Assembly (NCBI GenBank): GCA_018241725.1
Contig: JAFEDI010000126.1
Location: 59,603-123,602, forward strand
Source: Pseudomonadota bacterium
GTDB lineage: Bacteria > Pseudomonadota > Gammaproteobacteria > Burkholderiales > Rhodocyclaceae
DNA length: 64,000 nt
Direction: 5' to 3'
The notes below the pieces were generated by a model. The model made no database searches. It was not told the DNA's origin and worked only from the letters and a program-made list of their open reading frames with translations. Shown in pieces: positions 32,370 through 50,732 of this stretch. Made by a program: the position numbers and the translations under genes. Position 1 is the stretch's first letter. The number at the start of each line of letters is the position of its first letter.

Positions 32370-34364
32370 CTATTTGCTGGTCATGACGATATGCCCGTCG
32401 CTGTCAGGAACTGGTGAGCCAGCCAGGCGGTCATGACAGCGCTGCAGGTAGAAGCGAGCCGGACCATCGTTCGGCAACTGCTCCAGCAGACGTTGCAGGT
32501 GGGGAACTGCGGCCTCCGGTGCGTCGCTGAGGTAAGCATTGCGCGCCGTTTCGAAGGCATTTCCCAAGTCCGGAGAGAGTGGTGCGGAAAGGATTTCATG
32601 GAGTTCCAGCGGCGCTCGCTTGCCGATCAGGGCGAAAGCCCCGAGGGCTCGGGCATAACCTTGTTCCGCGCCGTCACGGCCGTGGGATACGACGGCCGCA
32701 GATGCCAGGATGCGCGTCCCGAGTGGTTTGTTGCCGCCCTGGATGCGGCTGGAAGTATTGACGATGTCGCCGACCACTCGCAATTCCCGATGCTGATCGC
32801 TTCCGACTTCGCCGAGAAAAACCGGGCCATAGTGGAGGCCGAAGCGTGTTTTCAGCGTGCCTGGAGCCTTGTCCTCGTTCATGCGCAGATGCAGGGCCAG
32901 CGCAGCGGCCCGGGCCCGGCTGCAGGCGTCCGCGGCGGAGTCGTCGGCCAGCCAGAGGCACATGGCGGAGTCGCCGACAATGTCCATGACATGCCCGCCA
33001 TGGGCTTCGACGAGCGGGATGAATATCGCGAAATAGCTGTTCAGCATGTTGCGGGTAGCTTCCGGGCTAAGCCCCTCGGACAGGCTGGTATAGGATTCGA
33101 TATCGCTGCACAGGCAGACCCCGTGGGCCGTGCGCCCACCATCGTGGCCCTGCAGCAGCGCTGCGAGCTTGGCATTGCCCTGGTGGCTGAGCCCCCGGTC
33201 GAGGGCCCTGACGAGCTGGCGTTCCCGTTGCCGGGCGGCGCGCATCTGCAGGGTGATGCCCCCGGCCGAGGCAATCAGCGGGGCAATGACGACGGGCAGG
33301 ATCACGGGCAGCCATAGATACGCCCAGGTGAAGCAGGCCCAGGCGACGACGAGCCAAGCAAGGGCAAGGCCCAACGTGATCGCCAGGGCTCGCCGAGTGC
33401 CGGCAAAGCGCCATGGTAGTGCGAGCAGCAGTCCCCAGATGAGTACTCCAGCGGCCGTGGCCCCTGTGGGAGGGCGCTCCAGGCTGGAGTCTTCGAGCAG
33501 ATTGCCCAGCGCGGTGGCGCACAGTTCGACGCCGCTGATGTCGAGGCCGTCCGGTGTGCTGTAAGGTGTTCGGAACATGTCGGCCTGGCGCGACTGGTTG
33601 AACTCGGAAAAGCCGATCAGTACCGCCTTGCCACGGAATGCCGCGTCCCCGGCAGATGGGTCGGTGAGCAGTTCCAGGGCGGTGGAATAGGGGATCGTAC
33701 GAATGCTGCCGATCGGGCCATAGAGGTTGAGAATGCGGCGCTGCGCATTCGCCGACCGGGCGTCGTGATGACCCATGCGCCGAGCCATCAGGAATGGGAG
33801 GGAAGGTCGGTCGCCGACGCTGGGGACGGCACTCCAGAATTCGATGACGCCGTCCGGCGTTTTCGGCATGATGAAGGGGCCGTTGGCCCAGGCGGCATCG
33901 CGCAGCAGGGGCTGGGCCTGGGTAATGTGGTCCATGCTGGCCAGGATTTCACCGCGGGGGCCGGTGACGGACTCGCGGCTGACGCCTTCAATGAGCGTTA
34001 CGTTGCCCGCTTTGCGCAAGGCCGCGGCTAAGGCCTGATCGTCGGCGGGTTCGCGTTCCCTCTCGAAGAGCACATCGAAACCGATGGCTTTGGCGCCCCG
34101 CTCGGCCAGGCCGTTGACGAGGCGCGCATGTAAGATGCGGGGCCAGCGTTCGGGACGGGGGGACTGACCGAGGTCCCGGGCTGAGCGGGAATCGAGGGTT
34201 ATAATCGCAACGGATTCAGGCGCCGGGCGAGGACCACGGAGCGCATAAAGCAAATCGAGGCCTGCGCCGTTCTCAAGTTCCTGGGCTGGAGAGAAAAAAA
34301 CCACTGCCAGTACGAGCAGTGTGGTCAGAAGAAGTCCGGCGAGAGGCTTGTCGGGGAACGGCAC
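32370..34364 (-). CDS. CHASE2-sensor class III nucleotide cyclase
   Basis: This 664-residue membrane protein has an N-terminal helix (about 8-25), a periplasmic CHASE2 domain (about 30-300; IITLDSRSARDLG, KAIGFDVLFERERE and GKAVLIGFSEF are typical), and three helices (about 300-372). The C-terminal class III cyclase domain (about 410-600) has metal-binding D421 and D465 and transition-state N536 and R540 (VGDIVNTSSRIQ). At the positions that normally select ATP (Lys, and Asp or Thr) it has D461 and R529, a charge-swapped pair. A TPR-like C-terminal tail follows. It probably makes a cyclic nucleotide in response to a periplasmic signal. A Crp-type regulator is divergent 43 bp away. Confidence 0.87.
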   Translation of the reverse strand: MPFPDKPLAGLLLTTLLVLAVVFFSPAQELENGAGLDLLYALRGPRPAPESVAIITLDSRSARDLGQSPRPERWPRILHARLVNGLAERGAKAIGFDVLFEREREPADDQALAAALRKAGNVTLIEGVSRESVTGPRGEILASMDHITQAQPLLRDAAWANGPFIMPKTPDGVIEFWSAVPSVGDRPSLPFLMARRMGHHDARSANAQRRILNLYGPIGSIRTIPYSTALELLTDPSAGDAAFRGKAVLIGFSEFNQSRQADMFRTPYSTPDGLDISGVELCATALGNLLEDSSLERPPTGATAAGVLIWGLLLALPWRFAGTRRALAITLGLALAWLVVAWACFTWAYLWLPVILPVVIAPLIASAGGITLQMRAARQRERQLVRALDRGLSHQGNAKLAALLQGHDGGRTAHGVCLCSDIESYTSLSEGLSPEATRNMLNSYFAIFIPLVEAHGGHVMDIVGDSAMCLWLADDSAADACSRARAAALALHLRMNEDKAPGTLKTRFGLHYGPVFLGEVGSDQHRELRVVGDIVNTSSRIQGGNKPLGTRILASAAVVSHGRDGAEQGYARALGAFALIGKRAPLELHEILSAPLSPDLGNAFETARNAYLSDAPEAAVPHLQRLLEQLPNDGPARFYLQRCHDRLAGSPVPDSDGHIVMTSK

Positions 34365-34407
34365 GGGACAGGGGTCAGAACTGTTCGGTCATGGGGGAAA
34401 GTCGGTG

Positions 34408-35055
34408 ATGTATCTTGAGCGGGTGGATCTGTTTGCAGGCCTGAATGACATACAGGTCAAGACGCTGAAGGAGCGTTCGCGCATACGCAGCTTTGCAGCC
34501 AACACCATCGTGGTCAACGAGGGGGATGAAGGCAGCAGTCTGTTTGTTGTGCAAAGCGGGTCCCTCAAGGCCTTTCTCACGGATAACAATGGGCGGGAGG
34601 TCACCCTTTCCCTCCTCGATCCGGGGGATTACTTTGGTGAGCTCGCCCTGCTGGACGATTCGCCACGTTCCGCATCCGTCATCGCGGTGACTCGCAGTGA
34701 AGTATTGCAGATTCCGCGCACGGCCTTCCTGAGTCTGATCGAGTCTGATCCGACCTGCATGCAGATGGTGGTACGTAACCTGGTGGCACGGATCCGCCTG
34801 CTCACTGACAATGTCCGGGCACTTGCGCTCGTCGATGTGTTCGGGCGGATCGCCCGGCTCTTCGAGACGATGGCCGTCGAGCGGGATGGCATGATGCTGA
34901 TCGACCGCCGCCTGACCCAGCAGGACCTCGCCAATATGGTGGGCGCCTCGCGGGAGATGGTGAATCGTATTCTCCGCGATCTGGTTGCCGGTGGTTACAT
35001 CGAGATCGAGCAGCAACGCATTATCCTGTGCAAGAAACTGCCCCAGAGCTGGTAA
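34408..35055 (+). CDS. Crp/Fnr-family transcriptional regulator
   Basis: A 215-residue regulator. The N-terminal cyclic-nucleotide-binding fold (about 5-115) has a phosphate-binding cassette FGELALLDDSPRSAS with E78, R87 and S88, matching CRP/PKA-type residues that hold the cyclic phosphate. A long dimer helix follows (about 115-140). The C-terminal winged HTH has RRLTQQDLANMVGASREMVN. No Fnr-like cysteines are seen. ATG 34408 is chosen over an in-frame upstream start because a GGGGGAAAG site precedes it and the longer frame overlaps the cyclase start. It is divergent from the CHASE2 cyclase, which suggests it reads that enzyme's product; this is inference. Confidence 0.87.
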   Translation: MYLERVDLFAGLNDIQVKTLKERSRIRSFAANTIVVNEGDEGSSLFVVQSGSLKAFLTDNNGREVTLSLLDPGDYFGELALLDDSPRSASVIAVTRSEVLQIPRTAFLSLIESDPTCMQMVVRNLVARIRLLTDNVRALALVDVFGRIARLFETMAVERDGMMLIDRRLTQQDLANMVGASREMVNRILRDLVAGGYIEIEQQRIILCKKLPQSW

Positions 35056-40156: not shown

Positions 40157-40522
40157 ATGAAAACAATCATGTTGGTCGATGATTCGGCCACCGTCCTGCT
40201 GTCCATCTCCGGAATCCTCTCCAAGGCAGGTTTCCAGGTTGTCACCGCCAACAGCGCCGAAGACGGCCAGAAGAAGCTGGCGGCGGGGACCAAGCCTGAT
40301 CTGTTGATCACCGATCTCAACATGCCCGGGATGAATGGCATCGAGTTCATCAAGCTTGTCCGTCAGAAGCCTGAACTGCGCTTCATGCCGATCCTGTTCC
40401 TGACTACCGAATCCCAGCAGAGCAAACGTGCGGAGGCCAAGGCCGCAGGAGCGTCGGGCTGGATCGTCAAACCGGCGACGGCTGACACGCTGCTCAATAC
40501 GATCAAGCTCGTCCTGCGTTGA
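40157..40522 (+). CDS. CheY-like single-domain response regulator
   Basis: A 121-residue receiver domain. The acidic pair is VDDSATV (D8, D9), the phospho-acceptor is in [13 protein letters not shown] (D55 region), and the conserved Thr and Lys are in FLTTES and WIVKPAT. It has no output domain, so it is CheY-like. It is the first gene of the chemotaxis operon, with a GGGAGGAG site upstream. Its stop lies six bases before the MCP-like gene start. It is the likely target of CheA and of the CheZ-like motif in the next product. I leave the symbol empty because the motor or other output is unknown. Confidence 0.9.
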
Positions 40523-40527
40523 AGCCC

Positions 40528-41814
40528 ATGTCGGACATCGGCGATAAATCCCGGCGCCGGCGCCTGCTGTTGTCCTTGCTGACGGCGGTGGGCGTGTTCG
40601 TCGTCGTGTATTTCGGCAACGATGCCTACCACAGGCTCCTGCTCGACGAGTTGGGGCTGAGTCAGTCTCTTGTGGATGCGATCGGCGCTATCGCGGCGGT
40701 GCTCCTCAGCTTCGAGGCGCTCAGCATGCTGTCGATCATGCGTTACCGGGATGCGTTGTATGGCGCGGAACGTGCGCTTGGCAAGACCAAGGATGAGCTT
40801 GAGCACAAGAGCGAAGTGGCGACCGAGGTGAGCCGCTCGTTGGACCAAGTGCCTCATCTCAATGGCATTCTCGTCGGGCAGCTCAATGCCGTCACCGACC
40901 AGACCGAGGTGGCGGCATTGGGCATGGTTGAGCGTCTGCAGGCAGTGGATGCCGTCGTGCAGGATCTCGATCAGGTCGTGCAGGCCTTCTCGCAGGAATC
41001 CAGCCAGATCGTCGAGGCTGCCAACACGCGGGCGGTTGGCAACCAGCAAACCCTCGCCGCATTGCAGGACTACATCCATCGTCGCCTCGAAAACGTCGGC
41101 GAAGAGCAGGAACATGTGATGGCGGCGCTGGAGGAGGCCAAGTCCCTCGCTCAATTCGTCAATTTGGTCCGTGATATTTCCGGCCAGACCAATCTGCTGG
41201 CCCTCAATGCGGCCATCGAGGCGGCCCGGGCCGGCGAAGCCGGGCGTGGTTTCGCGGTGGTGGCGGACGAGGTGCGCAAGCTGGCCGGGCAGACCGATCA
41301 GGCCGTGCTGAAGATCAGCGAAGGCATCGAACGGGTCGTGCATACCATCCAGTCCAAATTCAGCGCCCAACTGGACCAGAGCATTTCGAATGCCGAAGAA
41401 GATGCGCTGCGCACGGTGGCCGATCAATTCCATGAGGTCAGCGCCAGCTATACGCAACTGCTCGATCACGAGAACCGGATTCTCGGTGTGTTCCGCGAAT
41501 CGAGCCATCGGCTCGCCGAGATGTTCATGGAAACCATGGCCAGCGTTCAGTTTCAGGATGTCACCCGCCAGCAGGTCGGCCACGTGATCGAGGCGCTGGA
41601 GCGTCTCGACGAGCACGTCTTGAAACTGTCCGCCTGCCTGAACGGCACCGCCGCCATCAGCGACATTCCGGCGATGACCGAACAGATCGACCGCCTCTTC
41701 GAGAGCTATGTGATGGAGCGGGAGCGTGAGGAGCATGCCCGGCGCAGCGGCATCTCTCTGTCTCGTTCTGCGTCGGCCTCGGCAGGTGATGGACCTGCCG
41801 TCGAACTGTTTTAA
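40528..41814 (+). CDS. MCP-like signalling protein with CheZ-type DxxxQ phosphatase motif
   Basis: A 428-residue protein with two short N-terminal membrane segments (about 16-32 and 52-72) and no sizeable periplasmic domain. A helical cytoplasmic region follows, with the MCP hairpin tip ([20 protein letters not shown], about residues 212-231, then [15 protein letters not shown]). After the tip comes a helix ending [14 protein letters not shown] (D344, Q348). This matches the CheZ active-site helix FQDLTGQ, whose Asp and Gln (D143 and Q147 in E. coli) hydrolyse CheY-P. The tail ends GPAVELF. ATG 40528 is used; a TTG nine bases earlier overlaps the regulator stop. It may both couple to CheA and dephosphorylate the upstream receiver. 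The CheZ activity is inference. Confidence 0.75.
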
Positions 41815-41829: not shown

Positions 41830-42123
41830 ATGAGTGTCATTCGTCAGGCTTTTGCCGAGGATTTCACGATCTATCGCGTCGCCGAGCTGAAACCAGGCCT
41901 GCTTGGCCTGCTGGGCGGGGCCGAGCGCATCGAGCTGGACCTGTCCGGCGTTGAGCGCATGGATTCGGCCGGCTGCCAACTGCTGATGCTGGTCAAGCGG
42001 GAAGCCAGTGCCGCCGGCAAGACGCTGGCGATCGTCGCCCATAGTCCGGCGGTGCAATCCCTGATCGAGTTCTACAACCTTGCGGCCTGGTTTGGCGACC
42101 CGCTGGTCGTACCCGCAGAATAA
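41830..42123 (+). CDS. STAS-domain protein (anti-sigma-factor antagonist-like)
   Basis: A 97-residue single STAS domain. The phosphorylatable-serine segment is LSGVERMDSAGCQLLMLVK, with DSAG as in SpoIIAA-like proteins. It is cytoplasmic. It sits between the MCP-like protein and CheA (15 and 14 bp gaps), and STAS proteins beside CheA occur in alternative (non-flagellar) chemosensory clusters. Its partner, a serine kinase or other regulator, is not encoded nearby. It has a GAGGG ribosome binding site. Confidence 0.85.
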   Translation: MSVIRQAFAEDFTIYRVAELKPGLLGLLGGAERIELDLSGVERMDSAGCQLLMLVKREASAAGKTLAIVAHSPAVQSLIEFYNLAAWFGDPLVVPAE

Positions 42124-42137
42124 CTTCAGCGCTCACC

Positions 42138-44315
42138 ATGGACGAACTCAAGCAAGTTTTTCTGCAGGAAAGTGGGGAGCAGCTGGATGCGCTCGAATCC
42201 CTGCTGCTCGAACTGGAAGCCCATCCCGACGACGAGATCACCCTCAACGGAATTTTTCGAGCGGCCCATACCATCAAGGGTGCGGCCGGAATGGTCGAGG
42301 CTGCTGCCGTAGAGTCCTTCGCCCATGTAGTCGAGAACGTGCTCGACCGCCTGCGTAACCACGAGATTGCCGTCACCACGGATCTGGCCGCGCTGATGCT
42401 GGCGTGTACCGACCACTTGCGCGTGCTGGTCGCCAGCGAGGCCGGCATGGATCAGGTGAGCGCCGCCGACATCGAGGCCCAGACGGCCAGCCTGCTGGCG
42501 CGTCTGCGGGCCTTTGGGCCGGGGGGGGAGGTGCAAGCGACACCCAAGGCTGAGGAGCCCGGCGTGCAGCGCATTCCCTCTCCGCAGACCAGCCACAACT
42601 GCTGGCACATTTCGGTGCGGTTCGGCTCCGACGTGCTGCGTCAGGGCATGGACCCGGAGAATTTCCTGCGCTTCCTTGAGACGGTTGGCAACATCCGTCA
42701 CATGGAAACTCTAGCCGACAGAATGCCGGCCGCCGCCGAGATGGACCCGGAGCTGTGCTACCTGGGCTTCGAGATAGCGCTGGAGTCCGCCGCCGACAAG
42801 CAGACCATCGAGGATGTCTTTGCCTTTGTGCGCGACGAGTGCCAGTTGTCCATCCTGCCGCCAAACAGCAAGGTGAACGATTACGTCGAGCTGATCGAGA
42901 GCCTGCCGGAAGACACCCTGCGCCTGGGGGAGATCCTGGTGCGCATCGGGGCTCTGACCGCCGACGAGCTGAGCGAGGGCTTGCGTGCCCAAGCCATGGA
43001 CGACGGCGAGGCGCCGGCGGCCGAACGCCATGACAAGCCGATTGGCGAGATTCTGGTTGCCCAGCAGGTCGTGCAGCCTGAGGTCGTTGCCGCTGCGGTG
43101 GCCAAGCAGACCCAGGTCAGCGAGAAGAAAGCCCAGGATGCCAAGCTGATCCGCGTGCCGGCCGACAAGCTCGACCACCTGATCAACCTTGTCGGCGAGC
43201 TGGTGATCGCTGGGGCGGCGACCAGCCTGCTGGCCCACAAGCGCAGCGATGGCGAGCTGATCGAGTCTTCGTCGTTGCTTACGAGACTGGTGGAGGAGAT
43301 CCGCGATGCGTCGTTGCAGCTGCGCACCGTGCAGATCGGCGAAACCTTCAACCGCTTCCACCGCCTCGTGCGCGACGCCTGCAAGGATCTGGGCAAGGAC
43401 GTGGAACTGCTGATTTCCGGTGGCGAGACCGAGCTCGACAAGTCCATCGTCGAGAAGATCGGCGATCCGTTGATGCATCTGGTGCGCAACTCCCTTGACC
43501 ACGGTATCGAGGCACCGGCGGTGCGCGAGGCTGCCGGCAAGAACCCGCGCGGCACACTGCTCCTCAACGCTTATCACGATGCGGGCAATATCGTCATCGA
43601 AGTGGCCGACGATGGTGCGGGCCTCAACCGCGACAAGATCCTGGCCAAGGCTGTCGAACGGGGGCTGGTGGAGCCGGATGCCCACCTGTCGGATCGGGAG
43701 GTCTACGACCTGATCTTTGCCCCTGGTCTATCTACCGCCGACCAGGTGACCAACCTGTCCGGGCGTGGCGTCGGCATGGACGTGGTGCGCCGTAACCTGC
43801 TGGCCTTGCGCGGCACCATCAACGTCAGCAGCCAGCCGGGCCAGGGTACGCGTCTGACCCTGCGCTTGCCGTTGACGCTGGCGATCATCGACGGTTTCCT
43901 GGTGGTATCGGCCAACCGTTCCTACGTGATTCCCCTCGATGCGGTGGTGGAGTGCGTCGAGCGGCCCGAGGCAGAGCATGAGCGCAACTATTTCAACCTG
44001 CGTGGCCAGGTTTTGCCATCGGTGTGCCTGCGGGAGAGCTTCGGCTTGCCCGGCGAGCGCCCGGCCCGGGAGAGCGTGGTGGTGGTCCAGTACGCCGGCC
44101 AGCGCGCCGGTATCGTGGTGGACCGCCTGGCCGGCGAACTACAGGCCGTCATCAAGCCTCTTGGCGCGATCTTCCGTCACCTGCAGGGCATCGGTGGGTC
44201 GACCATCCTCGGCAGCGGTGAGGTGGCCCTGATCCTCGATATTTCCGCCCTCATCAAGATTTCGGGGCAGGCCGAGCAGCGCCTGCTGGCCCGCCCCGAG
44301 CAACGTAGTGCCTGA
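42138..44315 (+). CDS. cheA: Chemotaxis histidine kinase CheA
   Basis: A 725-residue CheA. The P1 Hpt domain has the phospho-acceptor H44 (RAAHTIKGAAGM). A second soluble domain (about 155-250, CWHISVRFGSDVLRQ) resembles a P2-like or ACT-like module. Then come two LGEILVxxGxxxxxxLSEG-type helix pairs (LRLGEILVRIGALTADELSE; KPIGEILVAQQVVQPEVVAA) reminiscent of MshEN domains, unusual inside a CheA. P3 dimerisation, the P4 ATPase (N box HLVRNSLDHGIE; DDGAGLN; GRGVGMDVV) and the P5 CheW-like domain complete it. It phosphorylates the CheY-like receiver and CheB. Confidence 0.94.
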   Translation: MDELKQVFLQESGEQLDALESLLLELEAHPDDEITLNGIFRAAHTIKGAAGMVEAAAVESFAHVVENVLDRLRNHEIAVTTDLAALMLACTDHLRVLVASEAGMDQVSAADIEAQTASLLARLRAFGPGGEVQATPKAEEPGVQRIPSPQTSHNCWHISVRFGSDVLRQGMDPENFLRFLETVGNIRHMETLADRMPAAAEMDPELCYLGFEIALESAADKQTIEDVFAFVRDECQLSILPPNSKVNDYVELIESLPEDTLRLGEILVRIGALTADELSEGLRAQAMDDGEAPAAERHDKPIGEILVAQQVVQPEVVAAAVAKQTQVSEKKAQDAKLIRVPADKLDHLINLVGELVIAGAATSLLAHKRSDGELIESSSLLTRLVEEIRDASLQLRTVQIGETFNRFHRLVRDACKDLGKDVELLISGGETELDKSIVEKIGDPLMHLVRNSLDHGIEAPAVREAAGKNPRGTLLLNAYHDAGNIVIEVADDGAGLNRDKILAKAVERGLVEPDAHLSDREVYDLIFAPGLSTADQVTNLSGRGVGMDVVRRNLLALRGTINVSSQPGQGTRLTLRLPLTLAIIDGFLVVSANRSYVIPLDAVVECVERPEAEHERNYFNLRGQVLPSVCLRESFGLPGERPARESVVVVQYAGQRAGIVVDRLAGELQAVIKPLGAIFRHLQGIGGSTILGSGEVALILDISALIKISGQAEQRLLARPEQRSA

Positions 44316-44342: not shown

Positions 44343-47075
44343 ATGTTCAATAACCTAAAAATAGGTGTTCGTCTGGGGATCGGCTTTGCCGTCGTCCTGT
44401 TGATGCTGGTGGCGATTTCGATCGTGTCGATCACGCGTATCAACGAACTCAATGACGGGATCGACGATCTGGCAGAAGGTCGCTTGCCCAAGATCGTGCT
44501 GGCCGACGAACTGAAGTACAACCTGCAGCTCGTTGGTCGTTCCGTCCGGAACATGATCCTCACGACGGACAAGAGCCTTGAAAAGCAGAACCTCGAGGCC
44601 ATCGTCAAACTGCGTCAACGCAACGGCGAGATCATCGAACAGCTCACGCCCTTGGTTAGCAGCGAAAAGGGCAAGGCATTGTTGGCCAAGGTGGCGGAGA
44701 TGCGTGCCCGCTACAATCCGATAACGGATCGAACACTGCAGCTTGCGGATACTTCGTCGCCCCAGTACAACCAGGAAAAGGCTGTTCAGATGTTGTTCGG
44801 CGAGTATAAGGATGCCGCGGAAGCCTATATCAGCGCCTTGTCCGATTTCGGTGGTTTCCAGATCGAGGCTGCCAAGAAGTCTGGCCAGCACGCGGTGGAT
44901 CTGGCTCAGTCGTCACGGACATTGGTGATCACGCTTGCGCTGATTGCGGTCCTGCTGGCAGTAGGTGTTGCGCTGTGGCTGACCCGAAGCATTACCCGCC
45001 CGGTTGGCCAAGTGGTGGATGCCGCCAAGAAGATGGCTGTCGGCGATTTCAACTTCACGCTGAAGAGCGATGCAAAGGATGAGGTCGGTCAGGTGGTTCA
45101 GGCGGTCGGGGCAATCCAGCAATCCGTTCAGGCCATGGCTTCCGACGCTTCGATGCTGTCCAAGGCCGCGGTGGAAGGCCGTCTGGCTACTCGTGCGGAT
45201 GCGAGCCAGCACCAGGGTGATTTCCGCAAGATCGTGGAAGGCGTCAACAACACCCTCGACGCGGTGATCGGGCCGCTGAACGTAGCCGCCAACTACGTGG
45301 ATCGCATTTCCAAGGGCGACATCCCGCCGAAGATCACTGACAACTACAACGGCGACTTCAACACCATCAAGAACAACTTGAACACCTGCATCGAGGCGGT
45401 GAACAAGCTGGTGGCCGATGCGGGCGTGCTGTCCAAGGCCGCGGTGGAAGGCCGTCTGGCTACTCGTGCGGATGCGAGCCAGCACCAGGGTGATTTCCGC
45501 AAGATCGTGGAAGGCGTCAACAACACCCTCGATGCGGTGATCGGGCCGCTGAATGTGGCAGCCAACTACGTGGATCGCATTTCCAAAGGCGACATCCCGG
45601 CGAAGATCACCGACAGCTATAACGGCGACTTCAACACCATCAAGAACAACCTGAACACCTGCATTGAGGCGGTGAACAAGCTGGTGGCCGATGCGGGCGT
45701 GTTGTCCAAGGCCGCGGTGGAGGGCCGTCTGGCCACCCGTGCGGATGCGAGCCAGCACCAGGGTGATTTCCGCAGGATCGTGGAAGGCGTCAACAATACC
45801 CTTGACGCGGTGATCGGGCCGCTGAACGTGGCCGCCAACTACGTGGATCGCATCTCCAAGGGCGACATCCCGCCGAAAATCACCGACAGCTACAACGGCG
45901 ACTTCAACACCATCAAGAACAACCTGAACACCTGCATCGAGGCGGTGAACAAGCTGGTGGCCGACGCCAACACGCTATCTGCGGCTGCGATTGCCGGACG
46001 CCTGGAAACCCGTGCGGAAGCCGGTCAGCACCAGGGTGATTTCCGCAAGATCGTGGATGGCGTGAATGGCACGCTGGATGCCATCGTCGGGCCGATCAAC
46101 GAAGTGCGCCGCATCATGAGCGCGATCGAGCAGGGCGATCTGACCCAGAATATTTCGAATGACTACCAGGGTGATTTCAAGGCGCTCAAGGAGGCAGTGA
46201 ACAACACCGTCAGCAAGCTCTCCGACACCATCACGCAGGTGCGTACTGCCGCCGATGCGCTGACCAACGCGTCCGGCCAGGTCTCGGCAACTGCCCAGTC
46301 CCTGTCCCAGTCGTCGTCCGAACAGGCTGCCAGCGTGGAGGAGTCGTCCGCGTCCGTCGAGCAGATGTCGGCCTCGATCAAGCAGAACGCCGATAACGCC
46401 AAGGTCACCGACAACCTGGCCTCGAAGACCGCGGTGGAAGCCACCGAGGGTGGCGATGCAGTGAAGAACACCGTCGATGCGATGAAGAAGATCGCCCAGA
46501 AGATCGGCATCATCGACGACATCGCCTACCAGACCAACCTGCTGGCCCTCAACGCTGCCATCGAGGCGGCGCGTGCCGGTGAGCACGGCAAGGGTTTCGC
46601 CGTCGTGGCAGCGGAGGTGCGCAAGCTGGCCGAGCGTTCGCAGGTCGCGGCGCAGGAAATCGGTGGGCTGGCGGGTGATTCCGTCGGCCTGGCCGAGCGT
46701 GCCGGTCAACTGCTTGATGAGATCGTGCCGTCTATCCGTAAGACGTCCGATCTGGTGCAGGAGATCGCCTCCGCGTCCCAGGAGCAATCGTCCGGTGTCG
46801 CCCAGATCAACAACGCGATGAACCAGCTCAACCAGGCTACGCAGCAGAATGCGTCGGCGTCCGAAGAACTGGCCGCCACTGCGGAAGAACTGGGCGGCCA
46901 GGCCGAGCAACTGCAGCAGCTGATGCAGTTCTTCACGATCGATGAGCGCAATATGGGCCGGATTCTGGCAGCGGCACCGTCGGCAGCTTTGGGGCGTGCC
47001 ACCGTCAGCAAGGCCCGGACGCCGGCCAAGGTAGCGGGCTTCGCGTTCAACGAAGGCGACTTCGAGAAGTTCTGA
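44343..47075 (+). CDS. Methyl-accepting chemotaxis protein with tandem HAMP repeats
   Basis: A 910-residue receptor. Membrane helix 1 (about 9-30) and helix 2 (about 195-217) flank a ~165-residue periplasmic four-helix-bundle-like sensor. A canonical HAMP follows, then three nearly identical 91-residue HAMP-type units (from about 272; each with [15 protein letters not shown] and [11 protein letters not shown]), a fourth diverged unit ([29 protein letters not shown]) and the signalling hairpin ([20 protein letters not shown]). The tail DFEKF is NWETF-like (aromatic-E-x-F) and may bind CheR or CheB. The poly-HAMP stretch propagates and may integrate signals. The ligand is unknown. Confidence 0.92.
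45156..45974 (+). repeat. Three 273-bp tandem repeats encoding HAMP units
   Basis: Copies begin at 45156, 45429 and 45702 (CTGTCCAAGG or TTGTCCAAGG start), exactly 273 bp each (91 codons). They differ by a small number of mostly synonymous-looking substitutions, for example CCGCCGAAG versus CCGGCGAAG at the ISKGDIP segment. The next 273-bp unit downstream is strongly diverged. This points to recent tandem duplication or gene conversion within a poly-HAMP receptor. Confidence 0.93.
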
Positions 47076-47095: not shown

Positions 47096-47677
47096 ATGAG
47101 CACGCTGCCCACGCCGGCGGGGGCATCTGCCGTTGCCGGGGCAAAGGCCCCGGTGGTGGTCGAGACCAGCCCGGCCCAGTATCTGACCTTCCTGCTCGGC
47201 GGCGAGATGTTCGCCGTCGGCATCCTCAACATCAAGGAGATCATCGAATACGGTACGGTTACCGAGATCCCGATGGTGCCGCCCTTCATCCGCGGGGTCA
47301 TCAATCTGCGCGGCGCGGTGGTGCCGGTGATCGACCTGGCCAGCCGCTTCGGCGGCAAGCGCTCCGAGGTGTCGCGACGGACCTGCATCGTCATCATCGA
47401 ACTGACCGAGAACGATGAGCGCCAGGACGTTGGCGTGGTGGTCGACGCGGTATCCGAGGTACTGGAGATCCCGGCCTCGGAGATCGAGCCGCCGCCGTCC
47501 TTCGGAGCCAAGATCCGCGCCGACTTCATCAAGGGGATGGGCAAGGTGAATGGCAAGTTCGTCATCATCCTGGAGGTTGAGAAAGTCCTCTCGGTCGATG
47601 AGATCGCCACGCTGGCCCGTGTCACTTCGGATGGTGGCGCGGCCGACCTGGTGGGGGGAAGTACGCCGTCGGCTTGA
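47096..47677 (+). CDS. cheW: Chemotaxis coupling protein CheW
   Basis: This 193-residue CheW has a disordered N-terminal tail of about 20 residues, then the two beta-barrel SH3-like subdomains (FLLGGEMFAVGILNIKEII; VPPFIRGVINLRGAVVPVID; GKVNGKFVIILEVEKVLSVD). It links receptors to CheA. An AAGGAG ribosome binding site precedes the ATG at 47096. It is 20 bp after the receptor gene and 19 bp before the first cheD. Nothing odd is seen. Confidence 0.94.
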   Translation: MSTLPTPAGASAVAGAKAPVVVETSPAQYLTFLLGGEMFAVGILNIKEIIEYGTVTEIPMVPPFIRGVINLRGAVVPVIDLASRFGGKRSEVSRRTCIVIIELTENDERQDVGVVVDAVSEVLEIPASEIEPPPSFGAKIRADFIKGMGKVNGKFVIILEVEKVLSVDEIATLARVTSDGGAADLVGGSTPSA

Positions 47678-47696
47678 GCGCTGCGGGGTGAGGACG

Positions 47697-48287
47697 ATGG
47701 ATTACGCCAGCCTACCGGCGCGGGAGATCGAGCGCCTGGCGCGCAATGTGGCGCCCGGTGCCTGGGCGGTAGAGCGGGAGCGGCCGCTGGCGACTCTGTT
47801 GGGGTCCTGCGTGGCGGTCTGCCTGTTCGATCCGCAAACGCGTATCGGCGGCATCAACCACTTCATGTTGCCCAACCTGCAGCGTAGCGCCCATGGCGAG
47901 GTGGATGCGCTGCTGGCGGGGGACTATGCGATGGAAGCCCTGCTCAACGCGCTGCTGGCCCAGGGGGCCCGCAAGGCACGCCTGCAGGCCAAGGCTTTCG
48001 GCGGTGGTACCATCATCGAAACCTCTGGTCAGTCCTTGGCCATCGGTCAGCGCAACGCGCGCTTTGCGCGGGACTGGCTGAAGCGGGAAGGCATTCCGCT
48101 GCTGGCATCGGATTTTCTCGGCCCTTGGTCGCGCAAGCTGCTGTTCCTGCCAAGTAACGGGGATGCCTGGTGCAAGCGCATCGTCACGTCCCACGCGACC
48201 GCCGAGGTGATCGCTCGGGAAGAACAGGCTTATGCAGCCACATTGAACAAGCCCGCCGAGCCGGATAACAACGTCGAACTGTTTTGA
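47697..48287 (+). CDS. cheD: CheD-type receptor deamidase, first copy
   Basis: A 196-residue CheD. It has ATLLGSCVAVCLFDPQTRIG with catalytic-type C38, GGINHFMLPN with H55, and the AKAFGGGTIIE Gly-rich segment; these match the Thr-Cys-His deamidase site. The protein continues beyond the usual ~160 residues to a tail ending PDNNVELF, the same VELF as the MCP-like protein at the operon start. CheD deamidates receptor glutamines and can bind CheC. It lies 8 bp before the cheR ATG. Two longer in-frame starts upstream lie inside cheW and are rejected. Confidence 0.88.
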   Translation: MDYASLPAREIERLARNVAPGAWAVERERPLATLLGSCVAVCLFDPQTRIGGINHFMLPNLQRSAHGEVDALLAGDYAMEALLNALLAQGARKARLQAKAFGGGTIIETSGQSLAIGQRNARFARDWLKREGIPLLASDFLGPWSRKLLFLPSNGDAWCKRIVTSHATAEVIAREEQAYAATLNKPAEPDNNVELF

Positions 48288-48295
48288 GGATCACC

Positions 48296-49135
48296 ATGGA
48301 GCGGGTTCGCACCCCTGTCGGGAGCCCCATGGGTTCCGTCATCACCAACGAGGAATTTGCGCTGTTTCAGCGGCTGATCTACAAGATCGCCGGCATCAGC
48401 CTTTCCGATGCGAAGAAGGTGCTGCTGGTCGGCCGCTTGTCCAAGCGCCTGAAGCACCACAACTTCGACACCTTTTCCCAGTATTACCGGCTGCTCAGCT
48501 CCGGCCAGCATCCGGAGGAACTGCAGGTCATGGTGGATCTGCTGACCACCAACGAAACCTATTTCTTCCGCGAGCCGGGCCATTTCGCCTTCCTGAAGAA
48601 CGACGTGATCCGCGCCCGTCGTCCCGCCGGGACCTTTCGCGTATGGAGCGCCGCCTGCTCCACCGGTGAGGAGGTGTACACGCTGGCGATGCTGCTGGCC
48701 GATTCGCTGCCGCAGTCCCCGTGGGAGGTGGTCGGCTCGGACATCAGCACCCAGGTGCTGGCCAAGGCCGCCGCTGCGCATTATCCGCTCGACCGGAACG
48801 AAGGCATCCCGCCCGAGTTCCTGACGCGCTACTGCCTGAAAGGCGTGCGTAGCCAGAGTGGGACCTTTCTGATCACTCCCGAGCTCAAACGTCGCACCCA
48901 CTTCCGGCAGGTCAACCTGACCCTGCCGGTGCCGGCCGACATCGGCGAGTTCGATGTGATCTTCCTGCGTAACGTGATGATTTATTTCGACATGGACACC
49001 AAGCGTAAAGTCGTTGCCAACCTGTTGCCGCGCCTCAAGTCGGGGGGCTATCTGTTCATCGGCCATTCCGAGACGCTCAACGGCATCCAGCAGGGGCTGG
49101 ACCTGGTGAAGGCGACGATCTATCGCAAGCCATGA
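48296..49135 (+). CDS. cheR: Receptor methyltransferase CheR
   Basis: A 279-residue CheR with an N-terminal helical domain (TNEEFALFQRLIYKIAGISL) and a SAM-dependent methyltransferase domain. The latter has the FRVWSAACSTGEEVYTLAML motif (about 110-130), the SDISTQVLAKA segment and FDVIFLRNVMIYFD. It methylates receptor glutamates. ATG 48296 is taken; a TTG at 48284 also opens the frame. Its stop overlaps the second cheD start by ATGA. It carries no TPR extension. Confidence 0.93.
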   Translation: MERVRTPVGSPMGSVITNEEFALFQRLIYKIAGISLSDAKKVLLVGRLSKRLKHHNFDTFSQYYRLLSSGQHPEELQVMVDLLTTNETYFFREPGHFAFLKNDVIRARRPAGTFRVWSAACSTGEEVYTLAMLLADSLPQSPWEVVGSDISTQVLAKAAAAHYPLDRNEGIPPEFLTRYCLKGVRSQSGTFLITPELKRRTHFRQVNLTLPVPADIGEFDVIFLRNVMIYFDMDTKRKVVANLLPRLKSGGYLFIGHSETLNGIQQGLDLVKATIYRKP

Positions 49136-49635
49136 TCGAGTGCGGTGACGATATCCGGGAGGTCTTCCTGCAGCCCGGTGGATTCTTCTTCGGTGGTGGC
49201 CGCACGCGTATCTCGACGCTGCTCGGTTCCTGCGTGTCCATCACCCTGTGGCATCCGCTGCGCCTGATCGGCGGCATGTGCCATTACATGCTGCCGAGTC
49301 GTGGGAGGACCGACGGGAAAGCGCTGGATGGGCGCTACGCGGACGAGGCGCTGGCTCTCTTCGACCACGAAGTGATGAAGGCGGGCAGTCGGCAGGTGGA
49401 TTACCAAGTGAAGGTCTTCGGCGGCGGCAACATGTTGAACCACGATGCCGCTCGACCTGCGGTCATGGACATCGCCCGTCGCAATGTGGACGCGGCGGAT
49501 ACGCTGCTGGTAAAGCATGGCTATCGCCCGAACGTCACCCATTGCGGGGGGACGGGGCACCGCAAGCTAATCTTCGACTTGTGGACCGGTCATGTGTGGC
49601 TGGCCCATCGTCCCATCGACGAGGTGAGCCCATGA
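49132..49635 (+). CDS. cheD: CheD-type receptor deamidase, second copy
   Basis: A 167-residue CheD paralogue with [20 protein letters not shown] (C34), [10 protein letters not shown] (H51) and [10 protein letters not shown]. The N-terminal [13 protein letters not shown] segment differs from the first copy. It overlaps cheR (ATGA) upstream and cheB (ATGA 49632-49635) downstream, so cheR-cheD-cheB are coupled. It lacks the VELF tail. Two CheDs in one operon suggests each acts on a different receptor or partner. Confidence 0.9.
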
Positions 49636-50732
49636 GATCCCGCCCGATTCGCGTGATGATCGTCGACGATTCGGCGATCGTGCGCCAGGTTGCCAGCGAG
49701 GCGATCAATGCCCAGCCCGACATGACCGTGCTGGCCACCGCGGTCGACCCCCTGTTCGCCATCGACAAGATGCGCAAGGAATGGCCCGACGTGGTCGTCC
49801 TCGACATCGAGATGCCGCGCATGGACGGCCTGACCTTTCTGCGCAAGCTGATGGCCGAGCGGCCGACGCCGGTGGTGATCTGCTCGACGCTGGTGGAGAG
49901 CGGTGCCAAGGCCAGTTTCGAGGCGCTCTCGGCCGGAGCGGTTGGCTTGGTGACCAAGCCCAAGGTCGGCCTCAAGCAGTTTCTGCAGGACGAGAGCGAC
50001 AGCCTGGTGGCTGCCGTCCGTGCGGCGGCAGGTGCCCGCCTGCATCCGGCCAAAGCCAAGGCCAGGATCACGCCGGCGGCGGAGGTGGTGCCACGCCCGA
50101 AGCTGACCCTCGGCGACTTGCCGCGTGGGCCGCGTCTGGCGTCCGGCGGTGACCGGACGCGCATTGTGGCCATCGGCACGTCCACCGGCGGAACGTTGGC
50201 GCTGGAGGCCGTGCTGACAGCGCTGCCCGAAGAGGTGCCGGGTATCGTGGTGGTGCAGCATATGCCGGCCGGTTTCACCGAGATGTTCGCCCGCCGCCTC
50301 AACGGCTTGTGCCGCATCCAGGTGCGCGAGGCACGCCATGGCGACCGCATCGAATCCGGGCTGGCGCTGATCGCACCGGGTGGGCGCCACCTGCAGGTGG
50401 CGCGGGATGGCAATGGCTATTTCGTCGGCGTCATGGATGGCCCGTTGATCAATCGGCACAAACCGTCCGTGGATGTGCTTTTCCGTTCGGTGGCTCGGGT
50501 CGCCGGCGGTAACGCGTTGGGGATCATCATGACCGGCATGGGCGATGACGGTGCCCTCGGTCTGAAGGAGATGCGGGATGCGGGGGCGGCGACGATCGCC
50601 GAGGCCGAAGAAACCTGTGTCGTTTTCGGCATGCCGAAAGAAGCCATCCTGCGTGGTGCCGCGGGGAGCGTGCTGCCTCTGCATGACATCCCGGGCGGGC
50701 TGTTGGCCTGGAGCCATGGGAAAGCGGGTTGA
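49632..50732 (+). CDS. cheB: Chemotaxis methylesterase/glutaminase CheB
   Basis: This 366-residue CheB has an N-terminal receiver with [12 protein letters not shown] and phospho-acceptor D58 ([12 protein letters not shown]), a linker at about 125-170, and a C-terminal methylesterase domain. The catalytic elements are Ser in AIGTSTGGT, His in VVQHMPAGF and Asp in MTGMGDDG. It removes methyl groups from receptors when phosphorylated by CheA. ATG 49632 overlaps the cheD stop. A longer reading frame upstream is a shadow. This is the last clear gene of the chemotaxis operon. Confidence 0.95.

Follow-up and report, generated by a model that had tools for sequence, protein, structure and literature searches.

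The locus analysed here raises the question of whether a chemoreceptor can itself be the off-switch of the CheY encoded beside it. It lies within a 64,000-nucleotide stretch of DNA (the window) on contig C29 of genome G000 (5.93 Mb, 151 contigs), where a forward-strand open reading frame (40528..41814) encodes a sensorless MCP of 428 residues that is McpA-like by published description and in which the reading frame, Pfam and alignment together reveal a CheZ-type two-helix signature. The original prediction had placed an MCP-like protein with a CheZ-type FQDxTxQ motif here, numbering the key residues D344 and Q348, and the reading frame, the Pfam MCPsignal match and the position of the signalling tip all uphold it. 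We consider the most likely function, with good though not full confidence, to be that of a CheZ-type phosphatase built into an McpA-like receptor and acting on the adjacent CheY, and the comparisons described below suggest that receptor and CheY off-switch may be one molecule.

The 428-residue protein is a true MCP by Pfam PF00015, with MCPsignal matching residues 193-308 (E 2.9e-26, 92.8 bits against a cutoff of 34.6). Reading frame, Pfam and alignment agree on a signalling tip at residues 216-235 (41173..41232, +), whose residues are mostly invariant across 25 aligned family members. Hydropathy shows two membrane segments, both before residue 75, and together with the AF2 helices (H2-42 and H46-73) it delimits two predicted membrane helices and a short loop at residues ~10-73 (40555..40746, +). 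A ligand-binding sensor domain, which is usual but not required in MCPs, was not found in the protein by Pfam, and the suggestion that it is a 'self-contained adaptation' element is not borne out because it has no recognisable sensor domain. Behind the tip the motif reads QFQDVTRQQ (residues 341-349; 41548..41574, +), with D344 and Q348 the candidate catalytic residues by sequence, alignment and profile comparison; it is followed by a segment conserved in the alignment, YVMxxxRxxH (residues 394-403; 41707..41736, +), and by a C-terminal VELF tail (41800..41811, +) that the tail counts given below mark as a candidate docking peptide. On the other side of the tip is TEVAA (T126-A130; 40903..40917, +), which alignment and arm comparison show to mirror D344-Q348 across the tip. 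The closest named matches are from Proteobacteria MAGs SZAS-78 and SZAS-77, at 91 and 93% respectively; next come eight records of Zoogloea, at 68-81% across the C-terminal part, and these matches place the genome near that genus.

The gene sits within a chemotaxis operon in which all genes are on the forward strand. Directly upstream is the CheY-like receiver that had been noted beside the gene (40157..40522), the presumed substrate, in which domain scan and alignment identify TTESQQ and a tryptophan at E. coli position 106. Downstream, domain scans identify a STAS-domain protein (41830..42123), CheA (42138..44315), a large MCP (44343..47075), CheW (47096..47677), a first CheD with a VELF tail (47592..48287, its start being approximate and the scanned stretch overlapping CheW), CheR (48302..49135), a second CheD without that tail (49132..49635) and CheB (49632..50732). 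The presence of two CheD genes in one operon, with the VELF end shared with the receptor only on the first, is an observation in its own right. The large MCP has a 4HB sensor, one HAMP and four HAMP_2 stretches, some of them nearly identical, and its sequence ends in DFEKF, a tail that fits the CheR-tether pattern quoted in a passage of PMC7184735; among 79 homologous large-MCP stretches, 65 terminate in FE[RK]F. Elsewhere in the window, 32370-34364 (-) and 34321-35055 (+) run in opposite directions with overlapping ends, and presumably encode a protein resembling a CHASE2-type adenylate cyclase and a Crp-like regulator, respectively.

Chance occurrence of the motif was considered and is ruled out by shuffle frequencies and by conservation across loci. 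When the 193 residues behind the tip were shuffled 60,000 times, FQDxxxQ appeared in 0.16% and FQDxTxQ in 0.005% of the shuffles. A whole-protein similarity search over 100 relative genomes found matches at E 5e-71 or better in 29 genomes, the own one included, and 30 loci were taken from it, counting the window's own copy; 10 of the 22 other genomes of the genus, some of them incomplete, gave no match in this search. All 30 loci have QFQDxxRQQ and a terminal [VI]ELF, and the tip-to-motif distance is identical in 29 of them, the remaining one being 11 residues longer. Ten more distant matches (E about 1e-28 to 1e-81), were chosen regardless of whether they contain the motif; in each of them [FY]QDxxRQ follows the tip at 117-118 residues and the tail is [VI]ELF or IDLF, and TExAA is present in eight. 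Loss of D344 or Q348 among orthologues, proposed at the outset as a check, was thus seen in none of the 30 loci nor in the ten distant ones. This constancy occurs among proteins many of which are about 40% identical or less to the window protein. Outside residues 207-267 the invariant positions of the 25 aligned members are G79, T126, E127 and A129 in the N-terminal part, Q341, F342, Q343, D344, R347, Q348, Q349 and L360 in the motif region, and Y394, V395, M396, H403, E426, L427 and F428 in the C-terminal part; T126, E127 and A129 are the sole invariant residues between 80 and 206.

A further 80 named loci were found with the peptide patterns QFQD[VI][TV]RQ or the YVM stretch. Motif and tail are present in 80/80, 15 of which repeat members of the 30-locus set, a count that is partly so by construction and is no independent test because the search patterns included the motif. 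The receptor frame appears to be split in two in L053 and L095. Among 105 distinct motif-bearing receptors gathered with a distance filter, 97 share a single register. A profile of the C-terminal part found matches, many of them weak, in 60 of 398 phylum genomes, and in the plasmid collection there was one weak match, from Sphaerotilus.

How far the likeness to CheZ extends is shown in part by family profiles. Pfam CheZ (PF04344) matches residues 278-370 (41359..41637, +) with E 2.6e-4, so that the CheZ profile search originally proposed does recognise the expected stretch, but at 21.4 bits against a family cutoff of 30.7; the 428-residue protein is therefore not a CheZ family member by Pfam's rule. 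NCBIfam gives a weak match to protein phosphatase CheZ (E 0.0053), and the window protein fails the E 0.001 threshold of the whole-genome CheZ search. The Pfam match recurs at E up to 0.1 in 19 of the 25 family members, on which other coiled-coil families also score weakly. Searching the 100 relatives for the CheZ family returned true CheZ as well as a small CheZ-like protein from six genomes, plus 13 matches below the cutoff, all 13 of which fall in the receptor family and none in ordinary receptors; in 16 of the 29 orthologue-bearing genomes, the window's own among them, that search gave no CheZ match in the family member. Among ten related proteins scanned, CheZ was matched at E up to 1 only in the receptor of the C26 cluster (0.0014) and in one small CheZ-like protein. 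Comparison of a profile of 25 C-terminal parts with one of 22 CheZ sequences gave P 3.2e-4 and a probability of 39%, with QFQDVTRQQ aligned on DFQDLTGQV, whereas for 19 ordinary MCP arms the comparison with that CheZ profile gave P 0.073 and 0.8%; in Pfam scans of these 19 arms CheZ was absent among the 25 of 45 families listed.

The motif had been aligned with one CheZ helix, and that alignment stands, being conserved and recognised weakly but specifically by CheZ profiles. The likeness is nevertheless larger, because there is a TExAA signature on the opposite arm too, and we reject the view that the CheZ likeness is confined to a single helix. If residue 237 is taken as the turn of the receptor, T126 is the mirror position of Q348, and A130 that of D344; in 99 members with [VI]ELF-type tails, the mirrored T is present in 93, the E in 94, and the two A in 93 and 89, respectively. 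In the CheZ of the same genome the point halfway between TEQAA and DxxxQ is within NQLSPDE, which we infer to be the turn, and by alignment to 1kmi TxxAA and DxxxQ correspond to T62/A66 and D143/Q147 of E. coli CheZ, in which the E of TExAA is A. This mirrored relation of TxxAA to DxxxQ was derived in the present analysis, not from the literature; what is new here, at the level of sequence, is thus a second CheZ signature, TExAA, on the opposite arm and mirrored to DxxxQ as it is in CheZ.

Profile comparisons of the ascending arm and of both arms together are consistent with this. Against CheZ helix 1 the ascending arm selects TEQAA with P 0.002, ordinary ascending arms giving P 0.34, and in 500 column shuffles the top score, 19.6, came close to the real 20.2 without reaching it. 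Set against the complete CheZ profile, the ascending arm by itself aligns at a different place, with P 0.034. With the tip omitted, the two arms together gave P 1.6e-5 against CheZ for a cut (95-165 plus 305-375) that was chosen after the mirror was seen, while five other two-arm cuts gave P 5.1e-4 to 1e-3; reversed arms gave P 0.36 and 31 ordinary MCPs P 0.2. For the chosen cut 0/500 shuffles were as high (best 28.8 against 38.1). Arms rotated by 3-67 columns scored 17.8 to 43.5 against the real 38.1, a control that does not separate them, and the two-arm score is accordingly to be read as likeness of the stretches and not of their exact register because rotated arms score as high. Judged by conservation and profiles, the motif is real and the CheZ likeness extends beyond it. 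The residue preceding the catalytic Gln is Gly in a 30-locus set of CheZ and Arg or Ser in all 105 receptors.

Fit to the second signature varies among more distant proteins. Six S-type receptors with tails ITFF, LTFF or IDLF were examined for TExAA: in L121 it stands in register in the form TETAT, in L122 and L172 a TExA is displaced by 3-4 residues, in L171 a MESA is displaced by one, and L123 and L220 show no fit. Five other DxxxQ proteins were compared using a loose pattern (T..[AVSL][AS]), by which the two small CheZ-like proteins have TAEAA and TVDAA, the stand-alone proteins described below have TDLVA and TDAVA, and L235 has nothing similar; the midpoints in these other proteins fall in stretches containing G or P.

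Structure prediction adds little to these comparisons. The full-length model (pLDDT 78, pTM 0.37) has one long helical region at 108-371, and both it and the model of the C-terminal part (pLDDT 69, pTM 0.31) are of single chains and too weak for site placement. Foldseek with the low-pTM model listed MCPs first, with CheZ absent among the best 50 of 498 matches listed. A helix-wheel estimate, itself weak, has D344 and Q348 facing the polar side, as their CheZ counterparts do.

The tail is shared with one other class of protein. Among 2007 open reading frames of at least 200 codons in the 80 named loci, 103 end in [VI][ED][LF]F: 80 of the receptor family, 22 that are CheD-like by a rough pattern, and one other. 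Within these loci 18 of 24 CheD proteins have a tail of the [VI]ELF type, and CheD and the 428-residue receptor family likely have a partner in common, candidates being CheY and CheA. We consider VELF unlikely to be a CheR tether, because the variant with valine prevents interaction with any of the four P. aeruginosa CheR homologues, as described in passages of PMC7184735, and because CheD has the same tail.

The pairing with CheY is close. CheY lies directly upstream of the receptor gene in 74 of the 80 named loci and STAS directly downstream in 76. The six loci without an upstream CheY include two contig ends (L046 and L052) and L095, where the frame is split and the second piece was measured; at the other three loci (L045, L069 and L105) CheY is missing from this position. 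The adjacent CheY copies are 69-98% identical to that of the window, the receptors outside Zoogloea being mostly about 40% identical, and in all 74 positions 87-92 (E. coli numbering) read TTESQQ and position 106 is W. At 30 loci where CheY neighbours true CheZ, positions 87-91 of that CheY read TAEAK, position 92 is K in 29 and R in 1, and Y106 is found in 30/30, counted without requiring Y. We take position 92 to be within the CheZ contact region, and because it differs between the two kinds of CheY, partner specificity probably differs from that of CheZ/CheY pairs.

The W106 subtype of CheY was considered as an exclusive mark of partnership with the receptor and is rejected. We fetched 29 phylum loci by similarity to the window CheY with 1.5-kb flanks, a sample of best matches and therefore biased, and W106 is present in all 29; an adjacent FQDxxxQ protein with the tail is found within these flanks only in L241, L243 and L244, and in L240 such a protein follows CheY but is cut by the flank (L231). 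That this CheY subtype also occurs without an adjacent DxxxQ protein counts against a phosphatase acting on the adjacent CheY.

The wider genome bears on the claim that no separate cheZ, cheC or cheX lies nearby. None of the three was found among the nine other operon proteins scanned, but the genome has a true cheZ, at one place on another contig than the window's, in the C145 cluster of CheY, CheZ and CheA. Whole-genome searches found CheC at one place, on C4 and just over the cutoff, and CheX over the cutoff on C34 and C27 with weak places on C4 and C34; FliY was sought solely through its CheC domain. On C34 a CheX is followed by a CheY with TTEN and W106 (L272, G000:C34:60271-61104), another pair of phosphatase and CheY. 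There are four CheA clusters in all, and each of the three without cheZ (C29, C144 and C26) has a sensorless FQDxxxQ receptor beside its cheY. The receptor of C144 has 433 residues, FQDRVSQ and the tail ITFF, that of C26 has 415 residues, FQDLVSQ and the tail IDLF, and both adjoin CheY and CheA. A pattern search of 50 Pfam places in the genome recognised 43 receptor tips, of which only three have [FIL]xDxxxQ behind the tip, one per cheZ-less CheA cluster, while any DxxxQ is common there (17/43). Among the 149 receiver matches of the genome, the window CheY is closest to those of C144 (46%) and C26 (42%), followed by the CheZ-paired CheY of C145 (38%). In a related genome that is 98% complete (G028) there are two family members (E 5.6e-84 and 3.9e-75) and no CheZ match. 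A lone receptor on C144, at 250 kb (L228:8909-10135), has FEDIVSQ and the tail VDLF, and blastp against the operon proteins found no cheY neighbour in the 19 kb around it.

Related proteins occur in other builds. L230 encodes a 157-residue stand-alone protein with DxxxQ, YVMxSERxxH and the tail SIDLF directly beside a CheY, and L229 a similar one with CheY about 200 bases away; these stand-alone forms are without an MCP tip and have tails SIDLF or EVDLF, and the stand-alone form scanned shows no Pfam CheZ match at E up to 1 but a weak NCBIfam CheZ match (E 0.0078). Because a stand-alone form exists, we suggest that the module can do without the receptor part. The PAS protein encoded by L231 combines a degenerate tip with a PilZ domain. 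The small CheZ-like proteins, with AQEFQDLAGQ (L234:6702-7680 and L236:4589-5236; 189 and 215 residues), occur in 6 of 100 relatives, that of L234 directly behind a CheY. Proteins of about 580-600 residues with the tail IELF and YTMxxERxxH are found in L126, L130 and L237:9278-11008, the last adjoining CheB. A tree of the DxxxQ receptors, rough and with long branches, does not show a single origin for them, forcing at least 2 changes with 3 the most economical.

With these findings we can consider how the protein would work. We favour a membrane-anchored, sensorless chemoreceptor-like protein whose cytoplasmic helical hairpin may double as a CheZ-type phosphatase, since it has the MCP tip at the hairpin end, DxxxQ on the descending arm and TExAA mirrored on the ascending arm. 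In CheZ the catalytic Gln places the attacking water. In the receptor dimer, phosphorylated CheY would meet D344 and Q348 on the four-helix bundle, Q348 would position the water as its CheZ counterpart does, and the C-terminal tail would help to hold CheY or another partner. Through its tip the phosphatase would sit in the array of receptors and CheA, and CheY would be shut off at the same site at which it is activated, perhaps depending on the state of the bundle. The contact between receptor and CheY must differ from that of CheZ, because CheY has Q92 in place of K or R and the receptor has Arg in place of Gly.

That same difference at position 92 could instead mean that the site is catalytically silent, a CheZ-like docking site that binds phosphorylated CheY via helix and tail in order to sequester, localise or sense it, and the conservation and gene pairing fit this as well. 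We think it rather unlikely, since D and Q are both kept in 40/40 loci within CheZ-like FQDxT surroundings, and pure docking would presumably not need to keep both. A different substrate would also accommodate the motif, with the phosphatase acting mainly on another CheY, such as a flagellar (F6-type) one, and so linking two pathways. Passages of PMC9855816 describe Shewanella McpA (McpAso) as associating and clustering with CheA3 of an F6-type system, and PMC7184735 (Nat Commun) describes F7 McpA-like receptors as associating with the F6 array; association with another array, which needs no action on the adjacent CheY, likewise counts against our preferred reading. The flagellar-type CheY here has its own adjoining cheZ, however, and the gene pairing points to the adjacent CheY, so that we regard another CheY as an unlikely main target. 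We consider it very improbable that the protein is an ordinary receptor of the array, with helix and TExAA having a structural or adaptation role (as methylation or CheD sites, for example) and coiled-coil convergence accounting for the CheZ likeness, for although it is a true MCP, CheD has the same [VI]ELF tail, other coiled-coil families score weakly and TExAA resembles sequences that occur at receptor adaptation sites, ordinary MCP arms show no CheZ likeness and the tipless stand-alone form beside cheY keeps DxxxQ, YVMxSERxxH and the SIDLF or EVDLF tail.

If a CheZ-type phosphatase is indeed built into the receptor, signal termination would take place inside the array, and an origin for CheZ would be suggested. 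The exact candidate residues can be named: T126, D344, Q348 and the tail. A broader proposal is that McpA-like receptors are the missing CheZ of cheZ-less systems and that CheZ and these receptors share one ancestral hairpin, CheZ being the hairpin without the receptor tip or the receptor being the CheZ hairpin with a tip at the turn. A whole class of chemoreceptors would in that case be CheY phosphatases within the array; we offer this tentatively, as a possibility that the sequences raise and that we would not yet favour. If the published McpA-like receptors carry the motif, a receptor phosphatase would answer both the missing F7 cheZ and the conserved C-terminus.

Comparison with known phosphatases places the receptor closest to CheZ (PF04344; E. 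coli, 1kmi), with which it shares FQDxTxQ, the mirrored TxxAA on the opposite arm, a gene beside cheY and a C-terminal tail after a linker. It departs from CheZ in that the motif is embedded in a long receptor hairpin with an MCP tip and membrane anchor, that Arg replaces Gly before the catalytic Gln, that it scores below the Pfam cutoff and that its partner CheY is of another subtype; the receptor tail is [VI]ELF, whereas CheZ ends in its CheY-binding peptide, VD[DE]LLxSLGF in 30/30 cases, the own one included. CheC, CheX and FliY are CheY phosphatases of another fold with an ExxN motif, and have only that function in common with the receptor as we read it. In passages of PMC7750401 AXXFQ is described as conserved beside DXXXQ in CheZ, of which the window protein keeps FQ and has S for A. 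CheT of Sinorhizobium meliloti, as described in parts of the review PMC12654446, resembles the receptor in its DXXXQ and CheZ-like predicted fold and enhances dephosphorylation of one of two CheY, but by that description it is not a receptor and forms a complex with CheR.

We found no report in the openly licensed literature of a CheZ motif in an MCP or McpA-like receptor. The passages of PMC9864684 and PMC11253619 found by term mention no phosphatase motif in McpA, and those of PMC7534058 place McpA-like receptors as neighbours of F7 clusters and describe no experiments on VCA1088. The McpA likeness rests on published descriptions of the P. aeruginosa, V. cholerae and S. oneidensis receptors (PA0180/CttP, VCA1088 and SO_2117), not on their sequences. 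According to passages of PMC7184735 (2020), stage 1 and 2 F7 clusters have an Aer2-like and an McpA-like receptor, organisms with such systems have cheZ only in F6 systems, and the McpA-like receptors have no heptad class and strikingly conserved C-termini of unclear role. As described, these receptors have a membrane region like that of the window receptor and lack an aromatic at the second tail position (valine in P. aeruginosa), the tail here being [VI]ELF in 30/30. Their clusters are described as containing CheY, CheA, CheW, CheR, CheD, CheB and a second receptor ending in an aromatic pentapeptide, as here, although the second receptor in the window has a 4HB sensor and HAMP repeats and not PAS as in F7 systems. 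The gene content of the window cluster is thus similar to that of F7 clusters as described.
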